Below are positions 2,697 to 53,558 of a stretch of 54,639 nt of DNA, piece after piece (the first letter of the stretch is position 1; each line of letters starts with the position of its first letter). This DNA comes from Nitrospinaceae bacterium (GTDB taxonomy: Bacteria; Nitrospinota; Nitrospinia; Nitrospinales; VA-1). The stretch is from positions 1 to 54,639 of the forward strand of contig JAJDBG010000120.1 of the NCBI GenBank assembly GCA_029261475.1. Reading direction: 5' to 3'. The notes below the pieces were generated by a model, which was given only the letters and a program-made list of their open reading frames with translations, searched no databases and had not been told where the DNA came from. Made by a program: the position numbers and the translations under genes.

Positions 2697-3866
2697 ATGG
2701 AAAAATCGCACAGAGGGGTGTTTGATCACCCTATTCTAGGATATGGATTCAGGCCCTTTTTCTTACTGGGCGCACTTTACACGACTATCAGCTTGCTAAT
2801 ATGGGGTGGATTTTATTTTGGATATGTCACACCACCTGTATTCCTGTTGGATCCGGTATCTTGGCATGCGCATGAAATGATCTTTGGATATACTCTGGCT
2901 ATAGTCTCTGGTTTTTTGCTCACTGCTGTCGCGAACTGGACAGACAGCCCGCCAACACAGAAAATTCATTTATTCGGACTTTGCCTACTCTGGCTAGCCG
3001 GGCGTATCGTTATGAATTTCGACCTGGGCTTGCCAGACAGTTTCATTTTAATTTGTGAAGGAGCTTTTATCCCAGCACTCGCAATCAGCATAGCTATCCC
3101 ACTATTTAAAGACTGGAACAAACGTAACTTCATATTTCTGGTCTTACTGAGCATTTTGTTTGCCTGTGATATGACCTTCATCATCCTGAAAGAGCGCATA
3201 TCACTCTATATCGCTGTGATGGTCATTGTTACCATGATTTCCTTGATTGGTGGGCGAATCATTCCATCCTTCACCGTAGACGCTCTGGAACTGCGGGGAG
3301 AAAAAGCTGACGAAATAGATCAAGGCAAGTTAGATGTTCTAGCACTTATATCCTTAGCGGCGGTTGCCTTGGTACTGCTATTTGCGCAACAGGAAAAAAA
3401 TGCTCTTGCCATAACAGCCTTTGTATCCGCTATTATTCATGCATTGCGCCTGCGGCATTACCATACGCGCAGAATATTGAACGACCCAATGGTCTGGATT
3501 CTTCATGTGGGTTACAGTTGGGTAATTCTTGGGCTGTTTTTGCTGGGAGGGTCGGCACTGGGTTTTCTTCCTTTCTCCGTTGCCTTGCACGCCTTCACAT
3601 CTGGAGCGATAGGGTCTATGACACTTGGCATGATGTGTCGTGTGGCATTAGGGCATACAGGGCGCAGTAAGATAGCGACCCGGATGACGACCTTAAGTTT
3701 TGTTCTGGTGCAATGTGCGGCTCTTATGCGGGTATTTGGCTTTGTGATTGCCCCGGACTATAGCATTGAGTGGGTCATCATTTCCGCTGTGCTTTGGGCA
3801 TCTGCTTTCACACTTTATATTATTGGCTATGCCCCAATGCTATCGAAACCTGCTCTCGATGAATAG
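2697..3866 (+). CDS. NnrS family heme/copper membrane protein
   Basis: Polytopic inner-membrane protein of 389 residues with roughly 12 hydrophobic segments, the usual size for NnrS. Family hallmarks visible: GFRPFFLLG near the N-terminus, WHAHEMIFGY (about 60-70), GGRIIPSFT (about 181) and HAFTSGAIGSMTLGMM followed by ALGHTGR (about 300-325). The histidines in these motifs are the likely heme/copper ligands. NnrS proteins are associated with nitric oxide stress and denitrification regulons, protecting the cell or its iron proteins from NO; the exact chemistry is not established. An AAGGA ribosome binding site precedes the ATG. It stands alone and is followed by a shared, bidirectional terminator. 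Confidence 0.9.
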   Translation: MEKSHRGVFDHPILGYGFRPFFLLGALYTTISLLIWGGFYFGYVTPPVFLLDPVSWHAHEMIFGYTLAIVSGFLLTAVANWTDSPPTQKIHLFGLCLLWLAGRIVMNFDLGLPDSFILICEGAFIPALAISIAIPLFKDWNKRNFIFLVLLSILFACDMTFIILKERISLYIAVMVIVTMISLIGGRIIPSFTVDALELRGEKADEIDQGKLDVLALISLAAVALVLLFAQQEKNALAITAFVSAIIHALRLRHYHTRRILNDPMVWILHVGYSWVILGLFLLGGSALGFLPFSVALHAFTSGAIGSMTLGMMCRVALGHTGRSKIATRMTTLSFVLVQCAALMRVFGFVIAPDYSIEWVIISAVLWASAFTLYIIGYAPMLSKPALDE

Positions 3867-3910
3867 GCCCTGATCTTGATTTAAGGAAGTTAGCTCTGGC
3901 GTAAAATAAA

Positions 3911-3944
3911 AAAGGCCCCGCTTAAAAAGCGGGGCCTTTCCTTT
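3911..3944. terminator. Bidirectional intrinsic terminator
   Basis: A perfect 13-bp stem (3911-3923 with 3927-3939, core GGCCCCGC) and an AAA loop. On the minus strand the stem runs into six T, an A and four more T, a strong terminator for the candidate RNA at 4104-3904. On the plus strand the tail is weaker (TTTCCTTT) but would serve the NnrS gene that ends at 3866. Confidence 0.85.
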
Positions 3945-3977
3945 ATCCGAGCAAGAGGAGCTTCCGTTAACCTGGCG

Positions 3978-4025
3978 TTAACAAGTTTCCTCGGAAGCTC
4001 CCTTCATACTGTGACTGTTAGACAA
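3978..4025 (-). CDS. Possible 15-codon peptide with an ideal Shine-Dalgarno
   Basis: A TTG start at 4025 lies seven bases after AAGGAGG (4039-4033), the best-placed ribosome binding site of any short frame in the window. The frame reads MSNSHSMKGASEETC and stops with TAA at 3980-3978, inside the 10-bp hairpin. Nothing is encoded downstream on this strand before the terminator, so it is not an ordinary leader peptide. The peptide resembles nothing I know. The Shine-Dalgarno match may instead belong to an RNA that contacts ribosomes. Confidence 0.2.
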   Translation of the reverse strand: MSNSHSMKGASEETC

Positions 4026-4109
4026 GGGATCACCTCCTTTTCATCAGGGGGATTCCATTTACACTGAAGGCTCCCCTGACGCCTGTCAGCGTAACGCACT
4101 AATGACACT

Positions 4110-4138
4110 ATTTTGAGGTTATTTTGAAAAAATGTCAA
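4110..4138 (-). promoter_or_regulatory. Sigma70-like promoter for the minus-strand RNA
   Basis: Consensus -35 TTGACA at 4138-4133, a 17-base spacer, and -10 CAAAAT at 4115-4110 (four of six matches). Transcription would begin near 4104 and run to the terminator at 3911-3939. Confidence 0.4.
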
Positions 4139-4401
4139 GATTGAGATTCACATTTTGGAGGCAATAATATACTCCCCCAAAACACCTATTCACTTCAATT
4201 CACAAACAAGGTCTGTAAAGAAAAATACCTGGGAATGTGGCAATACCAGTGCCTGTTTCTTAACTTGGAGAATGATTCACTATCAATGTATGGAGGCTTT
4301 TCTTTTTCGCAACCATCCTGAGCTTGCAAGGCGGACGATAAGAGGGATCGTCCCGACTGTTTACATTTTCAATGGAAGGATTTTGGGGATCGTACTATTT
4401 G

Positions 4402-5295
4402 TTACAGGCTTGGCCTGTCTGCCGCCCAGACGCGCTTGAACTCATCGTAAAATTTGCAATCCATTCGAGTGCCACCCAAAACTTTGGCGGACTGACCTGT
4501 TGAGAAACCATGAAAATCCCGGCTTCCAGTAACGATCAAACCAAATTGTCGAGCCAGATCTTTATAGTATTGAACTTTACGAATTTTCTCGTGATAAGGA
4601 TACACGCATTCGAGTCCCATCAAGCCCCAAGACGCAAGCTCTTCAACCATGACAGGTACATCCGAATACTCCCTGCCTTTTGCGGGGCAGTACAATGAGT
4701 AGGCTCGCTCACCGGGATGAGCTAAAACGGGTATGCCGCCGCTCTCTCTAATAAGGCGGAGGACTTCTTTCATATCAATATTTTTTCGCATTACATTGTA
4801 AGGCGCAAGGTAACGGTCGAAAGCTTCTCGAGTGTTGGAAACAATTCCAAGGCTCACCATTTCCCTTGCCAAGTGAGGACGCGCCAATACACCTTCTGCC
4901 GCTTTCCTGACATTATCAAATTCAAGGGAACCTTTGAAGCGATCGGGAACCAAATCGTTGACGCGGTCGATCAACTCGTGCATACGCTTGACACGTGCCC
5001 CAGCCATTTCCTTGACCCTAGCCGCCAACTCCGGCAGAATATCCTCCTGCGCGCTGAAATAAGCCAGAACATGCAATTGGAAATCCTGATAGGATACAGT
5101 GATTTCGATACCTGGAAATCCTTGAATCCCTGCAGAACGTGTCGCCTCGATAAACTCACCGATACCTTCAAAAGTATCATGGTCAGTCAAGCTCAGGATT
5201 GATACGGAATTTTTCCTGGCAATATCCACTAGTTTCTGCGGAGAAAACTCTCCGTCAGAATAAATGGAATGCATGTGAATTTCAGATTTCATCAT
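4402..5295 (-). CDS. PHP domain phosphoesterase (TrpH/YciV-like)
   Basis: Cytoplasmic metal-dependent phosphoesterase of 297 residues, the usual length of the TrpH/YciV group, whose members remove 3' phosphates from 3',5'-bisphosphonucleotides or act as 5'-3' exonucleases on short RNA. PHP metal motifs are clear: HMHSIYSDG at the N-terminus, LTDHDT (about 38), a central region with ARPHLAREM (about 138), AHPGE (about 192) and SRDFHG (about 257). Two start codons are adjacent (5295 and 5292) without a strong ribosome binding site. It is transcribed alone and divergently from the cytochrome fusion gene at 5393. The substrate is inferred from the family. Confidence 0.85.
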   Translation of the reverse strand: MMKSEIHMHSIYSDGEFSPQKLVDIARKNSVSILSLTDHDTFEGIGEFIEATRSAGIQGFPGIEITVSYQDFQLHVLAYFSAQEDILPELAARVKEMAGARVKRMHELIDRVNDLVPDRFKGSLEFDNVRKAAEGVLARPHLAREMVSLGIVSNTREAFDRYLAPYNVMRKNIDMKEVLRLIRESGGIPVLAHPGERAYSLYCPAKGREYSDVPVMVEELASWGLMGLECVYPYHEKIRKVQYYKDLARQFGLIVTGSRDFHGFSTGQSAKVLGGTRMDCKFYDEFKRVWAADRPSL

Positions 5296-53099: not shown

Positions 53100-53558
53100 A
53101 TGACTGCAACATTATGGCTTGTAGTAGGTTTTGCCGGGCAGGCCTTGTTTGGTGCCCGTTTCATTATTCAGTGGATAGTGTCAGAAAAAAAGGGTGAGAG
53201 CACTATTCCCCTCGCATTCTGGTACTGTAGCATCGGTGGCAGTATCATCCTGTTGACCTATTCCATCTACAAACAAGATCCTGTATTTATCGTAGGCCAA
53301 AGTCTCGGTTCTATAATCTACATAAGAAATCTAGTACTGATCGACCAAAAAAAGAAAAGAGCACGAGCCGCAGAGATGGAGAACAATGCTGCGGAGATGG
53401 AGAACAATGCCGCAACACTGGAAAGTAATGCCGCAGAGATGGAAAACAACGCCACAGAACTGAAGAACAATGCCGCAGAGATGGAGAGCAACGCCGCAGA
53501 GCTAAAGAACAATGCCGCAGAACTGAGGAGCAATGCTGCAGAGCTGAGGAATAGTTAA
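53100..53558 (+). CDS. LAB_N domain membrane protein with heptad-repeat tail
   Basis: A 152-residue protein. Residues 1-85 have about three membrane segments matching the LAB_N (lipid A biosynthesis N-terminal) domain: LWLVVGFAGQALFGARFIIQWI, YCSIGGSIILLTYSIYKQD, VGQSLGSIIYIRNL. Residues about 90-152 are nine heptads (consensus AAEMENN) encoded by a 21-bp tandem repeat, likely a coiled coil with asparagine-rich face. The ATG at 53100 is preferred over a TTG at 53079 inside the glycosyltransferase gene. Stand-alone LAB_N proteins next to GT2 enzymes are common; the tail is not. Confidence 0.85.
   Translation: MTATLWLVVGFAGQALFGARFIIQWIVSEKKGESTIPLAFWYCSIGGSIILLTYSIYKQDPVFIVGQSLGSIIYIRNLVLIDQKKKRARAAEMENNAAEMENNAATLESNAAEMENNATELKNNAAEMESNAAELKNNAAELRSNAAELRNS
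53367..53555 (+). repeat. Nine tandem 21-bp repeats in coding sequence
   Basis: Nine consecutive 21-base units, each coding one heptad (first unit AAEMENN, later AAELKNN/AAELRSN). Units at the start are most alike; later ones have diverged by base changes. The repeat keeps the reading frame and ends at the stop codon. Confidence 0.9.

Follow-up and report, generated by a model that had tools for sequence, protein, structure and literature searches.

A conserved, probably translated micro-ORF RNA with an extended Shine–Dalgarno sequence in Nitrospinales

Ms_IGR-5 (RF02471) is an actinobacterial small RNA (sRNA), a stand-alone transcript with a AAGGAGGUGGUCC-type sequence and a terminator. Its consensus contains a possible short open reading frame (ORF), read here as ...WTCEVAAR followed by a stop. 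In M. abscessus and M. smegmatis, ribosome footprints lie on homologues of Ms_IGR-5 (PMC4974804), and expression of homologues is known from Streptomyces (PMC8079986, PMC8780764). In those relatives of the alphaproteobacterial sRNA CC2171 (RF01867) that were read here, AAAGGAGGUGAUC precedes GUG/AUG UCU and a short ORF, and a terminator comes next; relatives from plasmid records have a GUG/AUG UCU CAU UG start, with ORFs of 24–26 codons in five distinct cases. Behind an extended Shine–Dalgarno (SD) sequence, RF01867 relatives (L144–L148, L153) have a short conserved ORF whose product starts MSHC, which makes the non-coding label of CC2171 doubtful. Two previously predicted ncRNAs of Caulobacter have been reported to be translated (PMC4117421). 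The same extended SD with AUG UCU CAU also stands before a longer protein, MSHGA..., of about 57–60 residues on Azospirillum plasmids (L149–L152); three of these four records have carbonic anhydrase genes nearby. In Sinorhizobium meliloti, the attenuator leader rnTrpL/peTrpL is reported to have a short leader-type ORF that acts in trans (PMC7298713). Ordinary mRNAs of S. aureus also make use of extended SD pairing (PMC13009471); the length of an SD is therefore no proof by itself of a special function.

The locus described here lies on contig JAJDBG010000120.1 of a Nitrospinaceae bacterium (assembly GCA_029261475.1); the whole stretch analysed, 54,639 nt, is referred to below as the window. 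A minus-strand RNA gene spans about 4104–3904 (Table 1). The initial annotation described it as an independent small RNA, and this is borne out by order-wide conservation, by conserved terminators and −35 boxes, by covariation in hairpin 1, the pseudoknot and hairpin 2, and by neighbours that differ between genera. The promoter named there is present as claimed, both copies of the GTTAAC pair were located on the minus strand (3982–3977 and 3971–3966) and the terminator stem, given as 13 bp with a T-run, measures 12–13 bp. A TTGAC box is found in most homologues, about 92–108 nt upstream of the SD core, and a promoter-like match of some kind lies upstream in 35 of 49. The terminator was detected in 48 of 50 homologues; the one in the window was not listed by the pattern scanner, yet it is plain in the sequence. 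The folding energy of 4104–3904 is −81.8 kcal/mol, compared with −58.9 ± 4.8 kcal/mol for shuffled sequences (z = −4.8), and none of 200 shuffles was as low. A PHP-domain gene (4402–5295) is located upstream on the same strand as the RNA and an NnrS gene (2697–3866) lies downstream in convergent orientation. Different genera have different genes beside the RNA, and the one downstream is often in convergent orientation, like NnrS here; the RNA is therefore not the leader of a neighbour. ARAGORN detected neither tRNA nor tmRNA genes in the window. At 53367–53543, the window holds a tandem array of 8.4 copies of a 21-bp unit, which can alternatively be read as a 63-bp unit.

Table 1. Features of the RNA gene, in the order of transcription (positions in the window).
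Feature	Position	Strand	Details or basis
Sigma-70-type promoter, TTGACA-17-CAAAAT	4110–4138	−	TTGACA 4138–4133, 17-nt spacer, CAAAAT 4115–4110
Hairpin 1 (P1)	4059–4094	−	4094–4086 with 4067–4059, plus inner AGGC/GCCU pairs; covariation
Pseudoknot helix	4044–4079	−	Hairpin 1 loop 4079–4073 UCAGGGG with 4050–4044 CCCCUGA; simple search and compensations
Extended Shine–Dalgarno sequence AAAGGAGGUGAUCC	4027–4040	−	14-nt exact complement of the 16S rRNA 3′ end
Micro-ORF, 15 codons and stop, UUG start	3978–4025	−	(M)LSNSHSMKGASEETC (as codons, LSNSHSMKGASEETC); translation, homologues
Hairpin 2	3957–4001	−	4001–3992 GGAGCUUCCG with 3966–3957 CGGAAGCUCC; perfect 10-bp outer stem, variable inner stem
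Intrinsic terminator, 12–13-bp GC-rich stem and T-run	3903–3941	−	Stem 3941–3912

A DNA search gave matches in 34 of the 46 genomes of the family. Of 77 genomes of the phylum, 49 gave a match to a covariance model built from 40 relatives of the RNA, and these 49 belong to a single order with four families. By a count from the table of covariance-model matches, the RNA is present in 25 of that order's 28 good-quality genomes (E 1e-29 to 7e-51); no match came from the 13 genomes that the class has outside this order. When named genomes were scanned with a pattern, 31 contigs came back, almost all of them carrying the label Nitrospinota, Nitrospina or Nitrospinaceae; judging by these labels, the order would be Nitrospinales. 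The RNA is a real conserved gene of this order and stands outside Rfam 15 at the gathering threshold, at which no match was obtained anywhere in the window. It was not found in a scan of viral contigs. The only convincing homologue outside the phylum is that of genome G128 (58 bits); this copy (L097/L117) keeps hairpin 2, the terminator and the SD and has no NUG start, while an AUU would open a 13-codon frame with a UAG stop at the equivalent site. The other members of its family that were searched gave no match. Marginal matches of about 20 bits in other phyla (G116, G143, G081, G094, G159) look like chance. A contig labelled as an alphaproteobacterial MAG (L039) has a Nitrospinales-type copy with a peptide identical to that of L010, which may be binning contamination.

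Sequence comparison supports an RNA with its own promoter and terminator, a 5′ pseudoknot, a maximal SD, a start codon, an ORF and a hairpin over the stop. In hairpin 1, 11 of 12 pairs are changed on both sides among 22 relatives, and the covariation score is 0.525 against 0.315 for shuffled alignments, none of 500 of which scored as high. The two strong hairpins of the initial annotation both have stems that are conserved in relatives, but the stem 4044–4050/4073–4079 is a pseudoknot helix and not a hairpin. Its 3′ strand stands just before the SD sequence. The helix was found by simple search in 47 of 50 homologues, with compensations CCAGGGG/CCCCUGG and CCAAGG/CCUUGG and, by eye in L102, CCGGGG/CCCCGG. 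Hairpin 2 has its 5′ arm inside the ORF and the stop codon in or near its terminal loop. The 10-bp outer stem is near-invariant (96% of cells paired) and the inner stem covaries freely (86% of cells paired, six of seven pairs changed on both sides). RNAalifold, applied to the alignment, reported a helix between the SD and the 5′ arm and missed hairpin 2, because both are nearly invariant; this SD/5′-arm helix led to the idea of a switch.

The AAAGGAGGUGAUCC block is nearly invariant in 40 aligned homologues. The 16S rRNA of a same-genus genome ends in ...GGATCACCTCCTTTCT, also given as ...GGCTGGATCACCTCCTTTCT, and matches 4040–4027; the initial annotation overlooked this 14-nt match. The 13-mer core AAGGAGGTGATCC is present at the RNA in eight of nine Nitrospinales genomes searched. 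Seven of these eight, including the present one, where the 13-mer occurs only once, have no second copy in the sequence examined, in counts from most of which the 16S gene is missing, possibly through incomplete sequence; the eighth, G001, has a second copy, which is the 16S gene. The ninth genome, G054, has its sole exact copy elsewhere and GGAGGUGAUCU in the RNA.

The earlier remark that no gene of normal size fits the locus hides a conserved micro-ORF behind this SD. Its start codon lies 7 nt behind AGGAGG, and every homologue has a NUG codon at 6–9 nt, mostly 7. Most homologues were collected without requiring a start codon; the pattern scan of named genomes did require one. Among 50 distinct homologues, the start is UUG in 29, AUG in 20 and GUG in one, and the stop is UAA in 39, UGA in six and UAG in five. 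The ORF has 14 codons in 42 homologues and 15 codons in six, and 48 of the 50 ORFs, with start and frame conserved, stop at about one common site in hairpin 2. L033 and L105 have frameshifted ORFs, extended to 19 and 18 codons, respectively; in L022 and L106, the spacing from SD to start differs by one or two bases and the ORF frame is intact. The inner frame of the 42 14-codon ORFs contains no in-frame stop, compared with a mean of 32 in column permutations, of which one in 300 was free of stops; the other two frames contain 38 and 66. Alternatively, the UAA, UGA or UAG in the loop could represent a UNR turn, although its fixed frame relative to the start codon speaks against this. Neither synonymous change nor residue similarity significantly exceeds column permutation (amino-acid conservation p about 0.13–0.22), so the peptide sequence is not demonstrably selected. 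The reading frame is protected; selection seems to act more clearly on translation itself than on the peptide.

Because an unusually long ribosome-binding sequence precedes a conserved frame of 14–15 codons, the RNA is very probably a translated micro-ORF RNA, a ribosome-engaging micro-message rather than an untranslated CsrA sponge. Translation is suggested also by analogy with the Rfam 'sRNA' Ms_IGR-5 and its footprints in two mycobacteria. The explanation that we consider probable is a stand-alone translated micro-ORF RNA of Nitrospinales, whose maximal SD captures ribosomes and which probably serves as a ribosome-driven switch or holds ribosomes. Its cellular role, and a mechanism beyond ribosome binding, we infer as follows. 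The RNA would capture initiating ribosomes and be translated, and a ribosome reaching the stop codon would open hairpin 2. The ORF-internal GGGAGCUUCC can pair with the SD while the 3′ arm, CGGAAGCUCC, has yet to be made, or else with that arm; a ribosome-driven switch is probable because both pairings are available. In 48 of 50 homologues, all six SD core pairs are possible between GGGAGCUUCC and GGAGGUGAUCC. When transcripts that stop short of the 3′ arm are folded, the SD lies in the SD/5′-arm helix; at full length, hairpin 2 forms and the mean unpaired probability of the SD is 0.46, versus 0.31 in the shortened transcripts. Since this difference in accessibility is modest and the folding model lacks pseudoknot energies, the switch is offered as a hypothesis, as is action in trans, both drawn from complementarity and folding. 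Translation would occupy the 5′ arm and so expose the 3′ arm, with its CUCC, for pairing in trans. Alternatively, the RNA may simply hold 30S or 70S ribosomes.

There are two further readings. In one, the RNA is an mRNA for a functional peptide of 14–15 residues with a conserved Gly-Ala-Ser, translated as above, with the peptide itself acting. The conserved frame agrees with this, as does the covariation in hairpin 2 from GGA GCU UCC to GGA GCC UCU/UCC (L109, L110, L113), which keeps Gly-Ala-Ser; however, the stem forces these residues as well, residue conservation does not exceed permutation and the C-terminal residue varies (C, G, A, Y, R, K, S, L), making a functional peptide rather unlikely. 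In the other, the RNA is an untranslated 30S decoy whose 14-nt 16S complement sequesters the anti-Shine–Dalgarno sequence, the ORF being incidental. Conservation of GAUCC, beyond the usual SD core, in nearly all homologues would fit a decoy, and so would the single genomic occurrence of the 13-mer. Interchange among start codons at a normal distance from the SD, the open frame and interchange among stop codons at one site would all be left unexplained, and a decoy is judged distinctly improbable.

The initial annotation had proposed, as one hypothesis, a CsrA-sequestering RNA of the CsrB/RsmY type. Such RNAs have several GGA triplets; its count of about eight proved accurate (eight within 4104–3904), and csrA, whose presence it had proposed to check, is in this genome. 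The Nitrospinales RNA differs in having no repeated GGA hairpin loops: of its conserved GGA triplets, only that of the SD is clear of the proposed helices, and the others are part of, or abut, the helices of the pseudoknot and hairpin 2. It also persists, by covariance-model match, in five genomes with no CsrA match (G003, G012, G035, G036 and G057). G035 and G036 are both members of genus g8; G036 is one contig, and the remaining four are estimated to be 94–97% complete (G035, 97%), draft absence being no proof of csrA loss. With no gathering-level Rfam match either, sequestration of CsrA is unsupported and very improbable. A leader-peptide attenuator of a downstream gene is scarcely credible. 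The length of the ORF, the stop inside a hairpin and the terminator that follows are reminiscent of trpL-type attenuators, and there are weak Thr/Trp/Phe leader scores; against this, no regulated same-strand gene lies downstream, NnrS being convergent here and not conserved elsewhere. Several other genera, too, have a convergent gene downstream, and which gene this is varies among genera. The peTrpL leader derives from a trp attenuator; the Nitrospinales RNA is without a cis target. Sub-threshold Rfam matches to leader peptides, RsaE, GcvB and RsmY are weak and mostly cover the terminator.

The Nitrospinales RNA resembles Ms_IGR-5 in being a stand-alone transcript with the same type of sequence, a short ORF (in Ms_IGR-5 a possible one) and a terminator. 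It differs in ORF sequence and hairpins and in its 5′ pseudoknot, which is outside the Ms_IGR-5 model; that model gave no gathering-level match in the window and is not listed at E ≤ 1 for 3850–4200. Among sub-threshold Rfam families, CC2171 is the one that the Nitrospinales RNAs match best, at about 26–41 bits against a gathering cut-off of 75; the common AAAGGAGGUGAUCC block and the terminator drive this match. In CC2171, a start-region helix CAUUGUC/GACAAUG replaces hairpin 2, the ORF is longer and no 5′ pseudoknot was seen. In a survey of 387 genomes, AGGAGGTGRTCCNDTG occurs about once per positive genome; about half of the 24 sites read in other phyla open ORFs of 10–16 codons, which are followed by hairpins and terminators, and several of these ORFs share similar ends (EVA/CEV). 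An arrangement of AGGAGGTGRTCC, short ORF, hairpins and mostly a terminator was seen in L166, L170, L174, L177, L179, L180 and L181, and the micro-ORF layout likewise in L196, L197, L200, L201 and L133 of other phyla. Two of these loci, L179 and L174, exceed the gathering score of Ms_IGR-5. Three loci from other phyla were also searched against plasmids, and no match was obtained.

The similar layouts of CC2171, Ms_IGR-5 and the other-phylum loci suggest a broader unrecognised class. We tentatively propose, as a possibility short of an even chance, that this class is widespread in many phyla, usually at about one member per genome, each with a near-complete complement of the 16S 3′ end, an ORF of 10–26 codons, a hairpin over the ORF end and a terminator. 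Several members are filed as non-coding (CC2171, Ms_IGR-5), and they may be ribosome-capturing regulators that report or buffer ribosome availability. The Nitrospinales, CC2171, Ms_IGR-5 and other-phylum RNAs may be either homologous or convergent. The reading of the locus thus shifts from a CsrA sponge to a probable ribosome-engaging micro-message, an RNA gene conserved across an order that includes ecologically important marine nitrite oxidisers. If these RNAs are one class, the 'non-coding' RNAs of Caulobacter, mycobacteria and Streptomyces would become testable as translated regulators with near-maximal Shine–Dalgarno sequences.
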